DNA of 36,189 nt from a virus: positions 1 through 36,189 of the IMG/VR virus record IMGVR_UViG_3300034374_000806. One strand, given 5' to 3'. Both the position numbers and the translations under genes were made by a program. Positions within the stretch are counted from its first letter, which is position 1; the number at the start of each line of letters is the position of its first letter. The notes below the pieces were generated by a model. The model searched no databases. It was not told where the DNA came from and saw nothing but the letters and a program-made list of their open reading frames with translations. Shown here piece by piece: positions 8,899 through 34,618 of the stretch.

Positions 8899-8917
8899 CT
8901 ATACTAATAGTATAGCA
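8899..8917 (-). promoter_or_regulatory. Extended -10 promoter with overlapping 17-bp perfect palindrome
   Basis: The minus strand carries TGC-TATACT, an extended -10. The palindrome CTATACTAATAGTATAG (8899-8915, 8-bp arms about one central base) covers the -10 completely, as an operator would. The -35 at 17 bp is poor (TTCCAA), which fits an extended -10 promoter. Transcription would begin near 8902 and serve the small proteins, scaffold and coat genes independently of the upstream late promoter. Confidence 0.55.
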
Positions 8918-8955
8918 TAAATTTTAACTAATTGGAAGAGTTTTCAACAATTTTT

Positions 8956-12298: not shown

Positions 12299-12740
12299 GC
12301 ATTATCCTTTCAAGCTCTTTACTACGATGGCCTACTTGGTCATACCACTTTGAATCCACCATTTCGTCGGCGGCTATATTGTATTTACCTTCGTTGACAG
12401 CTTTTAGCATGTTTTTAAATTGACTTAATCTATTTCGGCCAAGATTAAATGCCATATTCACTAAGACTCTTTGAGCGTCCGGTGACTGTCCTGCAAAGTT
12501 TAATACAAGCGCACAGGCATCTGTATAGGCTGTGTTGATGTCTTGTTCAAAACAGTTTTCAATTCTTTCTTCAGTGACAGGTGTGCCTACAGGCCAACCA
12601 TATTCAATGTCATCTTCTGTAACCAAGTGACCTACACCAAAAGTTTCATAGCCTTCTGAGTCTAAATAGATCTCAGATACGTAACCTTCGTGTTTGATTA
12701 GGTCTTCTTTTACAATATCAATTAAGTCTTCTTTATTCAT
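12288..12740 (-). CDS. T4-type lysozyme (glycoside hydrolase family 24 endolysin)
   Basis: A 150-residue muramidase. The T4 lysozyme triad is visible with exact spacing: Glu18 (KHEGY), Asp27 (YLDSEGY) and Thr33 (ETFGVGH), equivalent to T4 E11, D20 and T26. The later stretches NMAFNLGR and MVDSKWYDQVGHRSKEL match the family's C-terminal lobe. It has no signal peptide or TM segment, so it needs a holin, and a likely one is encoded at 35486. It sits between TerS and TerL, overlapping both (8 and 11 bases), with a strong GGAGG ribosome site inside the end of TerS. The placement is unusual for an endolysin, so a virion-associated role is also possible. Confidence 0.92.
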   Translation of the reverse strand: MNKEDLIDIVKEDLIKHEGYVSEIYLDSEGYETFGVGHLVTEDDIEYGWPVGTPVTEERIENCFEQDINTAYTDACALVLNFAGQSPDAQRVLVNMAFNLGRNRLSQFKNMLKAVNEGKYNIAADEMVDSKWYDQVGHRSKELERIMRGA

Positions 12741-13119
12741 CTATTACCTCCGCCTCGATTATTTCACCTTCAGTGATTTTACCGCCGACGCCTGTAATAG
12801 TAATATTTACAGAACTCTTACCCTGAGACATTTTATCTTTTTCAAAATATGACATCGGTAATACCCGATCCATGCACATCTTTAATGCCGCCATTTGTCC
12901 GGGATGTTCGTCATCAAGTGCAATATTAATTATTTTATTGATAACTTTATCGCCGCTGGTAGCTAATAAACGAGCTTTAAACTCATTTATCCTAGCGGCG
13001 TCACCCGGTGGTCTACCTACAATGCCTCTATTGCCTCTTTTTTTAGCTTCAATATCGGTTTTTCTAGGTCTTCCTCGCTTTTTTGGGGTGTTTTGTTCTG
13101 TTTCTATGGGACTCGACAT
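12733..13119 (-). CDS. Probable terminase small subunit (TerS)
   Basis: A 128-residue basic protein at the head of the late operon, two genes before TerL. The N-terminus has AT-hook-like stretches (KKRGRPRK and IVGRPPGD) followed by a helical domain (NEFKARLLATSGDKVINKI) and an oligomerisation-like region (GQMAALKMCMDRVLP), with an acidic tail. This fits the small packaging subunit that recognises phage DNA. I chose ATG 13119, with GGAG 5 bases upstream, over a longer frame from 13164, because that frame would start upstream of the promoter. The call rests on position and composition and was not aligned. Confidence 0.75.
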   Translation of the reverse strand: MSSPIETEQNTPKKRGRPRKTDIEAKKRGNRGIVGRPPGDAARINEFKARLLATSGDKVINKIINIALDDEHPGQMAALKMCMDRVLPMSYFEKDKMSQGKSSVNITITGVGGKITEGEIIEAEVIDE

Positions 13120-13139: not shown

Positions 13140-13152
13140 ATATTATACCACG
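13140..13152 (-). promoter_or_regulatory. Late promoter upstream of TerS, shared 13-bp core
   Basis: The minus strand reads CGTGGTATAATAT: a consensus TATAAT (13142-13147) with the extended -10 TGG. A TTGATT lies 18 bp upstream as a possible -35. The same 13 bases occur exactly at 20063-20075 and 32400-32412, also directly before genes. Transcription would start near 13135, leaving a 16-base leader with the TerS ribosome site. Confidence 0.75.
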
Positions 13153-13373: not shown

Positions 13374-13409
13374 TTGGCACGATTATTGCTAATGCAATAA
13401 CTATGCCAG
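13374..13409. promoter_or_regulatory. Sigma-54-type palindrome, copy 1
   Basis: The plus strand TTGGCACGATTATTGCT matches the sigma-54 consensus TGGCAYRNNNNTTGCW exactly at 13375-13390. The minus strand, read from 13408 to 13393, also matches exactly (TGGCATAGTTATTGCA). The two -12 elements face each other two bases apart. TTGGCA and TGCCAG form the outer arms. Confidence 0.65.
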
Positions 13410-13426
13410 CTATATAGTCTGCGGAG

Positions 13427-13462
13427 TTGGCACGATTATTGCTATTGCAAAGACTATGCCAA
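13427..13462. promoter_or_regulatory. Sigma-54-type palindrome, copy 2
   Basis: The plus strand at 13428-13443 (TGGCACGATTATTGCT) and the minus strand from 13461 to 13446 (TGGCATAGTCTTTGCA) both match the sigma-54 consensus at every specified base. The outer arms AGTTGGCA and TGCCAACT are a perfect 8-bp inverted repeat, so the element could also form an RNA hairpin or bind a dimeric protein. Confidence 0.65.
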
Positions 13463-13481
13463 CTTCATAGGCCTACAAAGG

Positions 13482-13517
13482 TTGGCATGATTGTTGCTAT
13501 TGCAAAGACTATGCCAA
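13482..13517. promoter_or_regulatory. Sigma-54-type palindrome, copy 3
   Basis: The plus strand at 13483-13498 (TGGCATGATTGTTGCT) and the minus strand from 13516 to 13501 (TGGCATAGTCTTTGCA) both match the consensus exactly. The distance to copy 2 is 55 bp. The right half is identical to that of copy 2, while the left half has changes that keep the consensus (CACG to CATG, ATTA to ATTG). Confidence 0.65.
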
Positions 13518-13538
13518 TCGACACAGGCTAAACAGTCT

Positions 13539-13555
13539 AGCAAGAACTATGCCAA
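13539..13555 (-). promoter_or_regulatory. Sigma-54-type half element, copy 4
   Basis: Only the leftward-reading half is present: the minus strand from 13554 to 13539 is TGGCATAGTTCTTGCT, an exact consensus match. The rightward half is absent. All four minus-strand sites in this cluster point towards the TerS-led late operon, which starts about 280-430 bases further on. Confidence 0.55.
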
Positions 13556-13654: not shown

Positions 13655-13679
13655 AAAAAAAAGCCCGCTATTTGCGGGC
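13655..13679 (-). terminator. Rho-independent terminator of the cargo block
   Basis: The minus strand has GCCCGC-AAATA-GCGGGC (6-bp GC stem, 13663-13679) followed by eight Us (13662-13655). It stops leftward transcripts from the glycosylase-like gene before they enter the late-gene control region. No U run follows on the plus strand. Confidence 0.9.
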
Positions 13680-13746
13680 CTAGGTTAATAAAAGAATAGT
13701 TGCAATAACCAATCTAGAAATTTTTCTATAGGGTTTCTATTGTCCA

Positions 13747-14932: not shown

Positions 14933-14950
14933 TAGCAACTACCGTGCCAA
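14933..14950 (-). promoter_or_regulatory. Non-palindromic sigma-54 promoter match facing the orphan gene
   Basis: The minus strand from 14950 reads TTGGCACGGTAGTTGCTA. The core TGGCACGGTAGTTGCT (14949 to 14934) is an exact match to TGGCAYRNNNNTTGCW, with GG and GC ten bases apart. Transcription would start near 14923 and reach the gene at 14783. Unlike the other copies it has no mirror half, so it is independent support for sigma-54 use and not just another copy of the repeat. Confidence 0.6.
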
Positions 14951-15084: not shown

Positions 15085-15120
15085 TTGGCACGATTGTTGC
15101 TAATGCATAAACCATGCCAA
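15085..15120. promoter_or_regulatory. Sigma-54-type palindrome, copy 5
   Basis: The plus strand at 15086-15101 (TGGCACGATTGTTGCT) matches the consensus exactly and would start transcription near 15112, towards the early operon. The minus half (TGGCATGGTTTATGCA, 15119 to 15104) has one mismatch in the -12 box. It lies 34 bases before the iteron array. Confidence 0.65.
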
Positions 15121-15153
15121 CTTTTTCAACTGAAATTTCTGTAAATGATAACC

Positions 15154-15249
15154 ATTCGCATTTGTGAATCATTCGCATTTGTGAATCATTTGCATTTGTG
15201 AATCATTCGCATTTGTGAATCATTTGCATTTGTGAATCATTTGCATTTA
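15154..15249. repeat. Array of 17-bp direct repeats (iteron-like), five full copies plus a partial
   Basis: The unit is ATTYGCATTTGTGAATC. Full copies lie at 15154-15170, 15171-15187, 15188-15204, 15205-15221 and 15222-15238, and a partial one at 15239-15249. The fourth base runs C, C, T, C, T, T through the array. Each unit is an imperfect inverted repeat (ATTCGCA / TGTGAAT). The complement TGATTCACA is one mismatch from the DnaA box TTATNCACA. There are no spacers, so this is not CRISPR. It may be an operator array or part of a replication origin. Confidence 0.85.
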
Positions 15250-18489: not shown

Positions 18490-20059
18490 AACAGGAGAAC
18501 AGATATGTCATACAGATCCGTCAACTCTAGAGCCTCTGGTAAAGGAGTTCGATCAAATAATCGGACACAATATAATTGGTTTCGATGCACCAGTGTTGCG
18601 GAAGCTATGGAATATTGGGATACCGAAATCGAAAGCGGTAGACACATTGATTCTTTCAAGACTGCTGAATCCACAACGAGAAGGCGGCCACAGCTTGAGA
18701 TCGTGGGGTCTGGAGCTGAACAACCAGAAGATTGATTTTGAGGATTATGATAATGGCTTATCAGATGAAATGGTTCAATATTGTAAGCAAGATGTTGCGC
18801 TTACCGCTAATGTCTTTGGCGTTCTTATGGCTGGTTTTGATGGATGGAAAGACTCTAATCAAAGCATTTCGATTGAACATGATATTGCGGTCATCTGCAG
18901 GAAACAAGAAGAAAATGGATTTCGATTGGATATTCCTGCGGCTACAACTCTTAAAGCTACGCTCTCAGATCGAATGGGTGTACTGGAAGACACGGTGCAA
19001 TCTGTTTTTCCTCCAATTGTCGAGGAAAGATGGTCTGAGAAAACTGGTAAGCGACTACAGGACAAGGTAACTGTATTCAATTTGGCTTCACGTAAGCAGA
19101 TAGGAGAACGACTACAGGCACTTGGATGGAAACCTACTAAGCGCACTGAGAAGGGTCAACCAATTGTAGATGAATCTACGCTGGAGTCTGTAGACATACC
19201 AGAAGCACAGATGATTGCAGAGTATCTAATGATACAAAAACGTGTTGCAATGATTGATTCATGGTTGAAACATGTTAAAGAAGATGGTAGAGTACACGGA
19301 GGTATTATTACAAACGGGGCAGTGACAGGACGAATGACTCACCGTAATCCCAACATGGGACAGGTTCCATCAGTAACCAAACCATACGGTCAAGAGATTC
19401 GATCACTGTGGACTGTAGAAGATGGTAATGTATTAGTTGGCACGGATCTTGCAGGGATCGAGTTAAGATGTCTTGCACATTATATGCAGGATGATGATTG
19501 GACAGAGGAGCTTTTGAATGGCGATATCCATCAGAAGAACGCAGATGCCGCAGGTATCACTAGACCTCAGGCAAAGACGCTTATCTATGCAACGCTTTAT
19601 GGAGCTGGGCCAGCGAAAGTCGGCAGTATTGTTGGCGGCGGGGCGAAAGAAGGGAATGAAATCTTATTTCGTTTTTATCGTAACACCCCTAAGCTACAAC
19701 AGCTTATGGAGAAAGTTCAGAAGGTGGCGGCAAAAGGGCATGTACCGGGCCTTGATGGTAGAAGAATATTGGTCAGAAGCGAGCATGCGGCACTCAACAG
19801 CTTGCTTCAAGGATGCGGTGCTATTATTGCCAAGCAATGGGCAATTGAAGCACATAAAACCTTCAGGAAAGAAGGACTTAATGTTAAACAAGTTGCTTTT
19901 GTCCACGACGAAATACAAGTTGAAACAGCGGAGAAAAATGGTGAACAAGTTGCACAAATCATGTGCGATGCGGCCTCACAAGCCGGGATTACTTTGGGCT
20001 TTCGATGCCCAGTAGATGCCGAATCAAAGATCGGTAAGAATTGGTTTGATACGCACTGA
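18410..20059 (+). CDS. Family A DNA polymerase with 3'-5' exonuclease (T7 gp5-like)
   Basis: A 549-residue polymerase. The exonuclease domain has Asp8 and Glu10 (LDIET), Asp59 (NIIGFDAP), and Tyr124-x3-Asp128. The polymerase domain has motif A at Asp346 (GTDLAGIELR), motif B at Arg385, Lys389 and Tyr393 (RPQAKTLIYATLYG), and motif C at His499-Asp500-Glu501. Tyr393 corresponds to position 762 of E. coli Pol I, the T7-like state. The thumb segment that in T7 binds thioredoxin is very short here (about residues 200-225), so host thioredoxin is probably not used as a clamp. The start must lie in the nuclease overlap because the LDIET exonuclease motif is in the first 10 residues. Confidence 0.95.
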   Translation: MMKQLILDIETNSTHSKIWCCVTQNLRTGEQICHTDPSTLEPLVKEFDQIIGHNIIGFDAPVLRKLWNIGIPKSKAVDTLILSRLLNPQREGGHSLRSWGLELNNQKIDFEDYDNGLSDEMVQYCKQDVALTANVFGVLMAGFDGWKDSNQSISIEHDIAVICRKQEENGFRLDIPAATTLKATLSDRMGVLEDTVQSVFPPIVEERWSEKTGKRLQDKVTVFNLASRKQIGERLQALGWKPTKRTEKGQPIVDESTLESVDIPEAQMIAEYLMIQKRVAMIDSWLKHVKEDGRVHGGIITNGAVTGRMTHRNPNMGQVPSVTKPYGQEIRSLWTVEDGNVLVGTDLAGIELRCLAHYMQDDDWTEELLNGDIHQKNADAAGITRPQAKTLIYATLYGAGPAKVGSIVGGGAKEGNEILFRFYRNTPKLQQLMEKVQKVAAKGHVPGLDGRRILVRSEHAALNSLLQGCGAIIAKQWAIEAHKTFRKEGLNVKQVAFVHDEIQVETAEKNGEQVAQIMCDAASQAGITLGFRCPVDAESKIGKNWFDTH

Positions 20060-20075
20060 AATCGTGGTATAATAT
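20046..20075 (+). promoter_or_regulatory. Mid-operon promoter before the SSB, shared 13-bp core
   Basis: -35 TTGATA (20046-20051), 16-bp spacer, TATAAT (20068-20073) with extended TGG. The core CGTGGTATAATAT (20063-20075) is identical to the ones before TerS and tail-tube A. It overlaps the polymerase stop region and would boost SSB, exonuclease and RNR expression. The start near 20080 rules out the upstream ATG at 20077 for the SSB. Confidence 0.75.
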
Positions 20076-20103: not shown

Positions 20104-20511
20104 ATGGAAAACACAAATCGTGTAAAAATCAAAGCCGACATCATGTGGGCTTATCTCGACAAGCAGAATGAAATGTCGGGTAAATATCAGGTTGACTTGT
20201 GCAACTTGTCAGACCCTGCTGTGAAGGCGCTAGAGGACATGGGCCTCGCAGTACGGCAGAAAGAGGACAAAGGGTTTTTTATAACCTGTAAGTCCAATAA
20301 CCCAATCCGTGCTTTTGACTTAGATGGAGATGTCCTTGAAGGCATTACTATCGGCAACGGCTCTAAGGCAGTTGCTATGATTAGCACATATAACTGGACT
20401 TGGAAGAACAAGGAAGGTGTCTCTCCGTCCCTACGTAAGCTGGTCATCGATGAGCTAGTCTCATATGAAGGCGAACCGATTACAGAATCGGACGACGACG
20501 AAATTCTGTAA
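20104..20511 (+). CDS. Single-stranded DNA-binding protein (T7 gp2.5-like)
   Basis: A 135-residue protein with a beta-rich OB-like body (VKIKADIMWAYLDKQ, GKYQVDLCNL, FFITCKSNNP) and the acidic C-terminal tail ESDDDEIL that SSBs use to recruit polymerase and helicase. I chose ATG 20104, 7 bases after AAAAAGGAG, over a frame from 20077 that would start at the transcription start. It lies between DNA polymerase and exonuclease, and its TAA overlaps the next ATG by one base. Its own promoter suggests it is needed in large amounts. The family call is from fold pattern and tail. Confidence 0.85.
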   Translation: MENTNRVKIKADIMWAYLDKQNEMSGKYQVDLCNLSDPAVKALEDMGLAVRQKEDKGFFITCKSNNPIRAFDLDGDVLEGITIGNGSKAVAMISTYNWTWKNKEGVSPSLRKLVIDELVSYEGEPITESDDDEIL

Positions 20512-30249: not shown

Positions 30250-31748
30250 TAGATAGTCCTTCCTATTGTTGCTTGAGCCGTCAGCCTCTGAATTGAAACT
30301 TGAGCACCATTGACCTCTGCTTCAATACCAAGCTGAACAACTTGACCGCCTCCACTTGCGTTTACATTTGGACGGTTTACTAAAACACCGGCATTAAACT
30401 CACCGATGTTGTATTCTGCAATGTTATACTCTGCAATGACTTGAGTAGAGAGTGTAAATCTTTTCTTCTTATAGTTATAAGAATAATCATAACCCCAGTT
30501 AAGTACAATGTCTGTTGCGCTACCGCCAATAACCGTAATCTTTAAATTCTTAAGTAGCTTTAGATTTGATGGAGCACCAAAGTCAATATAGTTAGTGAAG
30601 TATGCCATCTGGTAAGCTGAACCGTTATCGTCGTATCCTGTGTACTTTGCAATGCCTAAAGTCTTACCAAGTAACAAATCACCATCACGGGTTCTACAAA
30701 ATGCTTGTGGCTGAATACTATCCCACTGTGTTGCTCGATGTGCTCCATCCTGTAGAGGTGTACGCATATCAAAACAGTATGTAATATTTGTTGTAGGCAA
30801 ATGTAATAAATAAAAAGCCTCTTCAGGAGAGTACACAGAAAAAATATTTTGAGACTCTGCCAAAAGATATGTTGTCAATTCTGTACGTACATTCTTACTG
30901 ATATCAGTCATCGGAGCTGATTTTTCTTGAATGGTACGTTTAAGACTACGAACACCAGAGTCTGATAAAAATATTAAGTCTGTCCCAGTAACCTGAATTG
31001 AATCTCTAGCAATACAACCGATACCTACCACAGTATCAGCTATCTTCATTGTTGCCGGGTCATCTGCCCCAGAATATAATAAAATCTGACGTTTACCAAA
31101 GATTGCTAGAATACCGTTGTGTACGGCTAATGCAGTAATCTCATCAGAGCCGTCAGGCCATACCTTAGATACATCTATAGAACCTGACGAACCTGTATCC
31201 CACTTAAAGCCAGTGAGGAGGTCTGACCAATATACTGTTGAATTATTGGCTGACGTTTTGGCAACCCAGAGTCTACCAAATCCAGACTGCACAATATTAC
31301 CAGCAGGTACTGTACCGCTGTAATCGATGTGTGCGCTAACTTCATCACAAGTAGTCCCATCATAGTAAATAGGATCAGACCCTTCACGAAATAAAAAATG
31401 TACTCCGTTTAAAGTAGCATGATCGTATAGACCATCTGACACCGTGTGCGATGCAGGGGTAATGTCTGTGAGTGTTGTAGTACCTTTGTATATTGCTGTA
31501 GCACTGCTAGAAATAATTTCTGTTGTACCATCAGACTTAATAAATTCACCGATAGAGACTAAAGAGTCTCCACCAGTGGTTGTTTGGTATGCCCAGCCCT
31601 TACGAGCACCGATACGTCCAAATTGGTCAATAACACAGTTCTCAGCAACCAATGCAAACTGTTCAGGCAATGAAGTAGGAGAATCTTGAGTATTTAACCC
31701 GTAAAAACCCGGAGCCTGAATTGCAATGCTTTGTAGCTCTTTAGCCAT
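30249..31748 (-). CDS. Tail tubular protein B / tail nozzle
   Basis: A 499-residue, beta-dominated protein in the tail-tube B position, directly after the tube A protein. The N-terminal FYGLNTQDSPTSLPEQFA is typical of T7 gp12 / P22 gp10-like nozzle proteins in this phage group. Repeated short blades (WVAKTSANNSTVYWSDLL, ILAIFGKRQILLYSGADD, LIFLSDSGVRSLKRT) suggest a beta-propeller. The C-terminal IAEYNIAEYNIGEFNAGVL contains a small internal repeat. Six copies would form the distal tail. I infer the role from order and the N-terminal motif. Confidence 0.85.
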   Translation of the reverse strand: MAKELQSIAIQAPGFYGLNTQDSPTSLPEQFALVAENCVIDQFGRIGARKGWAYQTTTGGDSLVSIGEFIKSDGTTEIISSSATAIYKGTTTLTDITPASHTVSDGLYDHATLNGVHFLFREGSDPIYYDGTTCDEVSAHIDYSGTVPAGNIVQSGFGRLWVAKTSANNSTVYWSDLLTGFKWDTGSSGSIDVSKVWPDGSDEITALAVHNGILAIFGKRQILLYSGADDPATMKIADTVVGIGCIARDSIQVTGTDLIFLSDSGVRSLKRTIQEKSAPMTDISKNVRTELTTYLLAESQNIFSVYSPEEAFYLLHLPTTNITYCFDMRTPLQDGAHRATQWDSIQPQAFCRTRDGDLLLGKTLGIAKYTGYDDNGSAYQMAYFTNYIDFGAPSNLKLLKNLKITVIGGSATDIVLNWGYDYSYNYKKKRFTLSTQVIAEYNIAEYNIGEFNAGVLVNRPNVNASGGGQVVQLGIEAEVNGAQVSIQRLTAQATIGRTI

Positions 31749-32395
31749 TACGATGTTGTCCAGATTGTCTCATCAGGGCTTAAACCTGCATCAAAAGCTA
31801 CCGCATTAGATAGTTCTTGATTAGCAAAAACAGCCTGTTCTGATGCTGATTGACCTCCTGTTTCACCACGCTCACGCAATGCATAAGAGTATGCCCATTG
31901 AATAATAGGCGATGAAGGTACTAAAATAGAATCTGAGTCAGAACTTAAATCTGCTGTACGCTTTACAGTGTAGACGCTAAATGTTTCTACAGAATCTGGT
32001 GTTCTATAAAAACGAATCTGTGCATCACCATTACCATCAAGACCATCAATTGCGTAGTAAGCCACCGGCCCTGTAGCTGAGTTGCTGTCTAAATTTAACT
32101 GACGAATGCGTTGTAGTGATTCTTGAAGAACCTTACTATTACGTGTTTCATTGTGGACATACAATACTTTAGAACGTACACCAAAATCTGTTAATGAATA
32201 TAAACCATCACCAATAGTTGTAGTGATTGAATATGTATAACGTAGGCCTGTCCAGTCCCAAGTATCTTCTACTAGACGTTTTGCATCGTTGACAAAATCA
32301 CCGATCAGTTTTGAGTAATCTGACTCATCAACAGTGGTAACTTCTTCTTCACGGAGTTTTCGCAGAACTGCGTTTACTAAATTTAAATAGGTCAT
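31748..32395 (-). CDS. Tail tubular protein A / head-tail adaptor
   Basis: A 215-residue protein beginning MTYLNLVNAVLRKLREEEV, the conserved start of tail-tube A (T7 gp11 / P22 gp4-like) proteins in podoviruses. A helical N-terminal domain (LIGDFVNDAKRLVEDTWDW) and a beta C-terminal domain fit that family. Twelve copies would sit below the portal. The start ATG (32393-32395) lies 7 bases after a TATAAT, so its own promoter could give an almost leaderless message. No ribosome site is visible upstream. It shares one base with the tube B gene. Confidence 0.88.
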   Translation of the reverse strand: MTYLNLVNAVLRKLREEEVTTVDESDYSKLIGDFVNDAKRLVEDTWDWTGLRYTYSITTTIGDGLYSLTDFGVRSKVLYVHNETRNSKVLQESLQRIRQLNLDSNSATGPVAYYAIDGLDGNGDAQIRFYRTPDSVETFSVYTVKRTADLSSDSDSILVPSSPIIQWAYSYALRERGETGGQSASEQAVFANQELSNAVAFDAGLSPDETIWTTS

Positions 32396-32399
32396 AACT

Positions 32400-32412
32400 A
32401 TATTATACCACG
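32400..32412 (-). promoter_or_regulatory. Tail-operon promoter, shared 13-bp core
   Basis: The minus strand reads CGTGGTATAATAT with consensus TATAAT (32402-32407) and extended TGG, identical to the sites before TerS and the SSB. The -35 is weak (TTTAAT at 17 bp). The expected start (about 32395) coincides with the first base of the tail-tube A start codon. Confidence 0.7.
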
Positions 32413-32425
32413 TTTTTCAATAAAA

Positions 32426-34618
32426 TTAAACAGTTCGCTCTAATACTTGACGAGAAAATGTTAATTCATCTTCTGGTAAGAAATCAAATTCAGAAGACAA
32501 AGACTGTACTATTTCATCTCCTACAACTCTTTCACCCGGAATACGTTCACCTAACAAAGCTAATTGAAATTCAATTTCTGGAATGTCAATATTTAAATCT
32601 GTTAAGTTAATACCAAAGCCTTCGATGTCTGGTAAAGAAATATTAAACTTTGTAAAATCACCTAATGACAAATCACCAACATTAATGGCAGGCCAATCGA
32701 AATCTTCCATTTCAAAGCCCATTTCAAATAATTGCGGGACTTCAAAACCAAAATTAAGAAGATCTGATGTAAAAGTAAAATCAATCCCGTCTGGCATTTT
32801 GCCTTTAAGATTGTCCCAAATACCTTTTAAATCAATTCCTGATAAATCAATTCCATCTGGTAAGTCAACATTAATTTCAGGGAAAAGGCTTTTGAATGGG
32901 TTAGTTATATTAAAAGCAGGTAAGTCTACCTCTGGTAAATTAAAAGATAGTCCTTCACCTGAAATTAAATCAGATAACTTTCCGCCATTGTCAAAGAAAC
33001 TATATAACGCTTTTCCAGTGGCCTGAGCAAGATCCATGCCTTGATCTAGGTTGACTGCAAAGTCTAAACCTGCAATACCTGCGGCTTTACCAGTTTTAGT
33101 TTCAGCCCCTAAAGCTGTAAGTAAGTCATCACCATAACGATCACGAATTGACGCAGATAAATCTTTGCCACGAACTACAACGTCTGCACCTAGTTTTGCA
33201 AGATCGTGATTAGATTTAATCCACTCTGCTACTTGTGGATCAAACATAGCATCAATTGAATCATTCGCAATTTTTTCTAAGCCAAGAGTATCTGCAACAT
33301 CATCACCATAGACATCAATAAGGGCTGTAAGAGGATCATCACCTTGAGCAAGTTTTGTCCCTAACATCACCATGTCTTGTGTGGATTCAGGAAGTTCTGT
33401 TAGTGTTTGACTGCCTGTTAGCGAATCAAACACAACTTGCCCTAAATCAAAATCAGTGTTGACATAATCTTGCCATGAAGGATTTTCCTTGCCTGTCACC
33501 TCTTTTTTAATATTCGTCGGAAGAGGAAAATAATCGGCAGTGTTATATTTTTCTTGAAGTGCTAGTTCTTCTTGACGTTTTTGTTGAAACTCTGTTTCGG
33601 AAGTAAATAATGTCTTTGCAGGTTCACCACCAATATTTAATGTTTGTTGTATAATTGGCTCGCCTGTAGTAGGGTCTTGCCACACTTTAGCTTCAAAGGT
33701 GGATTTACCAAATAAAGCACCAGTGCCTGCGGCTCTACCGCCTTGATATACAATGTTAGGTGCAATACCTGTCGGGTCAATTGGAGCACCGAAAACATCA
33801 AATGCAACAGTACCTGCTACCTGACCACCTAAATTTCCTAGAATTGAATTGGCAAAAGCAGGGCCGAAGTCTTCTGCCATGAATGAATAAATACTAGGCG
33901 GTGCATCAACAAGCAATCCGTATTCTTCAGACAACAGCATTTTTTGATCAGGATATTGCTGTTGTGCTTGATAAAGCTGTTGGATAATATCCGTGTCAAA
34001 ATTGTATGTACCACCTGTAGAAGGAAGCTCTACATTACCACTCGATAACAACTCATTAATTTGATTGTATTGGTCTTGGGTGTATTGTAATGAGTCATCA
34101 AAGTTAATGTTGTATGTCTGATCATTGGCGCTATAAACAACATCAGCCGCAGGTGGTGCAGGTGCTTTAGGTTTAGAAGGTGTTGCAGGGCGTAGTCGTC
34201 TTCCTTCAGCTCTACCATAAGTTTCCCAATGATACAAAGGATCAAGCCCAGCGGCGGCTACATCAGGATTAGCGGCTAAATAGGCCGCACCATCAAATCC
34301 GCTTGAAGTTGGCGGAGGTGTTGAAACTGGTGCAAGTGGTCTGCCTTCCGCTTGCCCATAGTCAAGATAATGACGTAAAGGATCTACGCCTGCGGCGGCT
34401 ACGTCTGGGTTTGCTCGTAAATAAGCGTTAGCATCCCATCCTGCAGGTGGAGTAGGTGTTGCGATACCACCACCCTGATATGTTTCAGTGCCATCGCCAC
34501 CTTCAGGTGCTGTTGGATCGTAAGAAGGTGGTGTATCTGGGTAGGTGATTTCAATAACCGTACCAAGATCAAAATCTTCCTCAGAATCAACAGTTGACTG
34601 ATTAAAGTTTTGAGCCAT
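32426..34618 (-). CDS. Large virion-associated protein with NPDV repeats, 730 residues
   Basis: The N-terminus is acidic and Pro-rich. Two copies of a 36-residue repeat follow (61-96 and 108-143) with the core NPDVAAAGxDPLxHYxxYGxAEGR, a repeat I recall from secreted and surface proteins of Proteobacteria and not from virion proteins. The middle is Gly/Ala-rich and helical. The C-terminal third (about 550-690) is a run of short, nearly periodic segments with Leu-Pro-Asp/Glu and Ile-Asp-Leu turns. It is the gene upstream of tail-tube A, in a virion operon, so it is probably structural, but no function can be assigned. Confidence 0.65.
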   Translation of the reverse strand: MAQNFNQSTVDSEEDFDLGTVIEITYPDTPPSYDPTAPEGGDGTETYQGGGIATPTPPAGWDANAYLRANPDVAAAGVDPLRHYLDYGQAEGRPLAPVSTPPPTSSGFDGAAYLAANPDVAAAGLDPLYHWETYGRAEGRRLRPATPSKPKAPAPPAADVVYSANDQTYNINFDDSLQYTQDQYNQINELLSSGNVELPSTGGTYNFDTDIIQQLYQAQQQYPDQKMLLSEEYGLLVDAPPSIYSFMAEDFGPAFANSILGNLGGQVAGTVAFDVFGAPIDPTGIAPNIVYQGGRAAGTGALFGKSTFEAKVWQDPTTGEPIIQQTLNIGGEPAKTLFTSETEFQQKRQEELALQEKYNTADYFPLPTNIKKEVTGKENPSWQDYVNTDFDLGQVVFDSLTGSQTLTELPESTQDMVMLGTKLAQGDDPLTALIDVYGDDVADTLGLEKIANDSIDAMFDPQVAEWIKSNHDLAKLGADVVVRGKDLSASIRDRYGDDLLTALGAETKTGKAAGIAGLDFAVNLDQGMDLAQATGKALYSFFDNGGKLSDLISGEGLSFNLPEVDLPAFNITNPFKSLFPEINVDLPDGIDLSGIDLKGIWDNLKGKMPDGIDFTFTSDLLNFGFEVPQLFEMGFEMEDFDWPAINVGDLSLGDFTKFNISLPDIEGFGINLTDLNIDIPEIEFQLALLGERIPGERVVGDEIVQSLSSEFDFLPEDELTFSRQVLERTV

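Follow-up and report, generated by a model that had tools for sequence, protein, structure and literature searches.

The locus and the three copies of the 13-mer

The window, that is the whole 36,189-nucleotide stretch of DNA analysed here, comes from an uncultured phage for which there is no close isolated relative, and represents only a fragment of it. The polymerase is at most 46% identical to those of isolated pelagiphages, and the terminase is distant from the terminases of isolated phages. No homologue of its adaptor protein was found among isolated phages, and a host search via genome contigs returned unrelated metagenome bins only. Homologues of the window genes are nevertheless present in many IMG/VR contigs, and the gene order is largely common to the 22 long contigs examined. 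An exact-match search of the whole window detected CGTGGTATAATAT three times and nowhere else, each copy lying directly upstream of a gene and on the strand of that gene. The genes, the copies and the -35 elements associated with them are as follows.

20104..20511 (+): Gp2.5-like SSB gene (PHROG 112, E 2e-7), start placed at the ATG behind AGGAG from comparison with relatives
12733..13119 (-): putative small terminase (TerS) gene, named by its position before lysozyme and TerL
31748..32395 (-): SU10-type adaptor gene (Pfam PF24175, E 1.5e-13), predicted leaderless mRNA, no Shine-Dalgarno
20063..20075 (+): 13-mer, SSB promoter core; extended -10 CGTGG, -10 TATAAT (20068-20073), then AT; predicted start ~20080
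13140..13152 (-): 13-mer, TerS promoter core; -10 TATAAT 13147-13142; predicted start ~13135
32400..32412 (-): 13-mer, adaptor promoter core; -10 TATAAT 32407-32402; predicted start 32395, the A of the ATG
20046..20051 (+): -35 element TTGATA of the SSB promoter, within the final DNA polymerase codons
13166..13171 (-): -35-like TTGATT of the TerS promoter, spacer 18 bp
32425..32430 (-): degenerate -35 TTTAAT (3/6) of the adaptor promoter

An earlier note on this DNA had named the adaptor gene tail-tube A; it is this gene that matches Pfam SU10_adaptor. The TerS product matches nothing in PHROG or Pfam and owes its name to position alone; its start is more plausibly ATG 13119 than the printed TTG 13164, just as the SSB start is more plausibly ATG 20104, behind AGGAG, than ATG 20077.

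The earlier note had reported the three exact copies, each placed before a gene and including an extended -10, and this description was borne out. Allowing up to one mismatch, CGTGGTATAATAT averaged 0.07 occurrences in 100 dinucleotide shuffles, none of which reached three. The expectation of about 0.001 that the note had given for a random 13-mer is correct as a figure but is the wrong null, because the sites have a promoter consensus in common. Comparison with relatives identifies CGTGGTATAATAT as the -17 to -5 portion of a sigma-70 promoter: TGGTATAAT is a true extended -10, and the -10 hexamer is a perfect TATAAT at the three sites. The -35 boxes and spacers of the window are TTGATA/16 (SSB), TTGATT/18 (TerS) and TTTAAT/17 bp (adaptor), to be compared with a consensus TTGACA at 17 ± 1 bp that is helpful, not essential. 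No further common element was seen up- or downstream of the three copies (pairwise identity 14–26 of 73 and 16–19 of 60 positions), the sequences flanking them being unrelated.

Homologous promoters in relatives and a fourth site

Relatives were fetched by DNA polymerase (80 loci), adaptor (34) and terminase (80). They carry the consensus TTGACW-17bp-(TRTGn)TAnnnT-AT before SSB, TerS and adaptor at homologous places; promoter elements, spacing and positions are conserved. At the SSB site, TGnTATAATAT stands right after the polymerase stop codon in nearly all of the 80 polymerase-relative loci, the exceptions being a few with TG directly on TATAAT, or with TATACT, and TTGACA lies within the last polymerase codons in most of them. 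At the adaptor site, close relatives have TTGACA or TTGACT (as do most relatives, at 17 bp), a 17 bp spacer ending in TATGG, TAnnnT and then ATG. At each gene of the relatives, the upstream candidate most like a sigma-70 promoter was the one picked, and the counts for the -35, spacer, TG and -10 are therefore biased towards that grammar: TG was present in 60/60, TTGACW in 59/60 and the 17-bp spacer in 59/60 of the distinct TerS promoters, the 17-bp spacer in 19/19 and TG in 18/19 of the adaptor promoters, and TG at -15/-14 in 45/48 of the SSB promoters, with A-11 and T-7 invariant throughout. T at -17 and a purine at -16 (each in 59 of the 60 TerS promoters) and the AT after the -10 carried no weight when sites were picked, and these too are conserved.

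Two features of the SSB site were observed in passing. In relatives L007-L009 the TG abuts TATAAT with no base in between, the -35 of that promoter being a consensus TTGACA, and the extended -10 appears dispensable there. The -35/-10 spacer (20046-20073 in the window), which runs across the polymerase stop codon, contains inverted repeats with differing arm sequences in relatives (L004-L083), the mean stem being 5.2 vs 4.8 with halves swapped (0/500 higher). A covarying inverted repeat was rejected as an explanation of the 13-mer; it is weak to absent in the window's own copy.

The adaptor promoter sits close to its gene. In 15/15 distinct close sequences the -10 ends 6-7 nt before the ATG and a Shine-Dalgarno is absent, while a Shine-Dalgarno was found in 4/4 of the relatives whose -10 lies 11-26 nt from the ATG. 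A start 7 nt past the -10 would coincide with the A of the start codon, so that a leaderless adaptor mRNA is predicted. TerS and SSB have short leaders, that of SSB with AGGAG. The lambda cI mRNA is leaderless (PMC8138138), and the adaptor resembles it in being predicted to start with the A of the ATG and in lacking a Shine-Dalgarno; it differs in being a virion gene whose arrangement is conserved across relatives, and in that its leaderlessness is a prediction.

A weight matrix covering -17 to -5 was then trained on the relatives, sequences close to the window being left out, and run over the window. The best score, 18.7, was obtained not at one of the three copies, which scored 16.6 each, but at a fourth site; the next best score was 10.1, and Markov shuffles averaged 0.45 profile hits at a score of 14 or above.

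8907..8919 (-): TATGCTATACTAT, fourth member of the promoter class, lying between the portal gene and the next (scaffold) gene

The four profile sites are all intergenic and all directed into genes, and TG at -15/-14 is present in 4/4. The fourth had been overlooked in the earlier note because the sequence there is TATGCTATACTAT, which lacks CGTGG. A strong profile match occurs at the same place in most long relatives that cover it, profile matches in 23 contigs sit mainly at the four homologous positions, and TGNTATAATAT gave 39 matches vs 4 for the reversed pattern in 32 contigs. It follows from the profile result in the window and in relatives that the promoter class is real, with at least four members in the window.

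Recognition of the sites

The earlier note had regarded CGTGG as more than sigma-70 needs and had suggested that a phage-altered polymerase or an activator recognises it. Neither idea is supported by comparison with relatives, in which -17 to -14 reads TRTG. In gram-positive promoters TRTG is the documented extended -10 motif; in E. coli, -17/-16 can influence transcription, and TGn can offset a poor -35 (PMC2613000; PMC8553145). C at -17 was counted, the window included, in 1/60 TerS, 4/48 SSB and 3/19 adaptor promoters, and seems essentially private to the lineage of the window. The 5-mers of the nearest relatives are CGTGC at SSB (87% identity), CATGG at the adaptor (92%) and AATGA at TerS (88%); since these differ from the window at the three sites, the 13-mer, which the note had proposed to search for in relatives, does not persist intact even where the proteins are about 90% identical. 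Among relatives with at least two sites, likeness of the -17..-13 5-mers within genomes was 3.37/5, vs 3.42 ± 0.07 in shuffles, and hence there is no within-genome concordance. A phage-specific CGTGG box was rejected on the strength of the nearest relatives, of the fourth site and of the concordance result, and, the distinctive first letters being unconserved in relatives, a special phage transcription factor is not needed. There remains a residue: C-17 and a weak -35 occur together at all three sites, a state seldom seen in the family. It is explained in part by shared ancestry, C-17 being found also in the relatives nearest at SSB and at the adaptor, and the combination with sub-consensus -35 boxes may reflect a lineage-specific shift. 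The note's proposal of one promoter class accordingly stands, for sites that precede a replication gene (SSB) and virion genes (TerS, adaptor, pre-scaffold) and that are kept at homologous positions in relatives, but without special recognition of CGTGG.

The three sites are very probably ordinary promoters for the housekeeping (sigma-70 type) RNA polymerase of the host. In each, a -35 box would be separated by about 17 bp from a TATAAT-like -10 that is preceded by an extended -10 (TRTGn) and followed by AT; sigma would touch the -10 and the TG at -15/-14, and the extended -10 would compensate for the weak -35 boxes of this phage. Together with the pre-scaffold site they would form the promoter set of the replication and virion operons of the phage group, and the 13-bp identity would have two sources, the consensus common to the sites and, at -17 and -16, either coincidence or drift within the lineage. 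Recognition by host sigma-70 and the positions of the start sites are what I infer. The likeness to sigma-70/sigma-A extended -10 (TRTGn) promoters extends to the -10 hexamer, TG at -15/-14, R-16, the AT after the -10 and, in relatives, T-17 and TTGACW at 17 bp; C-17 and the weak -35 of the window depart from it, and many relatives pair a near-consensus -35 with the extended -10.

One alternative is that CGTGG and TATAAT are read together by an activator that the phage encodes or by a modified polymerase, much as at T4 middle promoters or with a phage sigma factor. It would account for the C-17/G-16 that the three sites share in the presence of weak -35 boxes, and small (early) genes without known relatives could conceal a transcription factor. 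However, CGTGG is missing from the fourth site and from the nearest relatives, where the 5-mer is also not concordant within genomes, and in relatives a sigma-70 -35 box persists with a 17-bp spacing. The resemblance to T4 middle promoters comprises a good -10, an extended -10 (found in about half of them) and the presence of middle genes. In T4 middle promoters a MotA box stands 12 ± 1 bp upstream of the -10 (PMC2988021); by contrast, the window sites share no MotA box, the centre of which would be at -30, where the -35 otherwise lies, nor any other box at -30 or farther upstream, and the -35 box (TTGACW) is conserved in relatives. No T7-type RNA polymerase (PF00940) was found in 33 records, nor in the possibly incomplete window and 18 relatives (T7 positive control 1e-109), and no gene with a sigma-70 region 4 or sigma-54 domain was matched in the phage, with the same proviso about the window. 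T4 middle/late and T7-type schemes were accordingly rejected, there being no MotA box, no TATAAATA and no RNA polymerase or sigma gene, and recognition by a phage factor is very unlikely. That the three copies are due to chance, or are a dispersed repeat devoid of promoter function, would agree with their unrelated flanks, yet the expected count in shuffles is far below one and homologous sites with the same promoter grammar are conserved across relatives; chance is rejected on these grounds, and the probability left to this reading as a whole is close to negligible. Ordinary host-type promoters thus remain the preferred reading, with the reservation that plain sigma-70 promoters alone leave the timing of late genes unexplained.

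The control region between TerS and the early genes

The sigma-54 -24/-12 consensus TGGCAYR-N4-TTGCW has ten exact matches in the window (shuffles 0.15), of which nine are located between TerS and the early genes. A sigma-54-like match at 19438 was set aside, being inside a conserved coding motif of DNA polymerase.

13375-13554, 14934-14949, 15086-15101: nine exact sigma-54-like matches in the TerS-early control region, partly back-to-back, repeated

With one mismatch allowed, 38 matches were found in 62 kb of TerS-early region vs 37 in 507 kb elsewhere (21 contigs), and TGGCA-N6-TTGC ranked first in this region in an unbiased gapped-word search. The four-base gap gave 34 matches in 23 contigs, other gaps 0-2 each. 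Positions unused in the selection (the pyrimidine before TGGCA, the purine after Y and the final W) also fit the published sigma-54 consensus (PMC2848651). Similar arrays occur in relatives L008, L066, L130, L133, L163 and L180 and are missing from many others; the orientation of the elements is mixed, and several of the window copies are part of a 53-bp repeat.

These elements may be promoters, decoys or operators. It is possible, and I propose it tentatively, that the arrays next to the TerS promoter are sites for host sigma-54 holoenzyme in both orientations, serving timing or acting as decoys alongside the sigma-70 class. That they mainly drive late TerS transcription, the sigma-70 promoter being secondary, is very unlikely: the strong regional enrichment and the four minus-strand -24/-12 elements at 13393-13554, which face TerS, speak for it, but the elements face both ways, and many relatives have the TerS sigma-70 promoter and no such elements. 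Arrays of this kind beside the TerS promoter would be unusual if real.

Two other features of the region were recorded. Before the early genes, a 17-bp tandem repeat in five copies (CATTTGTGAATCATTCG-like, 15131-15249) could represent iterons or operators. A strong intrinsic-terminator-like hairpin with a T run lies upstream of the sigma-54-like array on the minus strand (13661-13681).

The analysis removes the claim of a special phage transcription signal. It provides in its place a promoter map of four sites and one predicted leaderless gene, testable by cloning, and it indicates that a widespread group of uncultured marine phages, in which no RNA polymerase gene could be recognised, probably relies on plain host-type promoters for its replication and virion operons.
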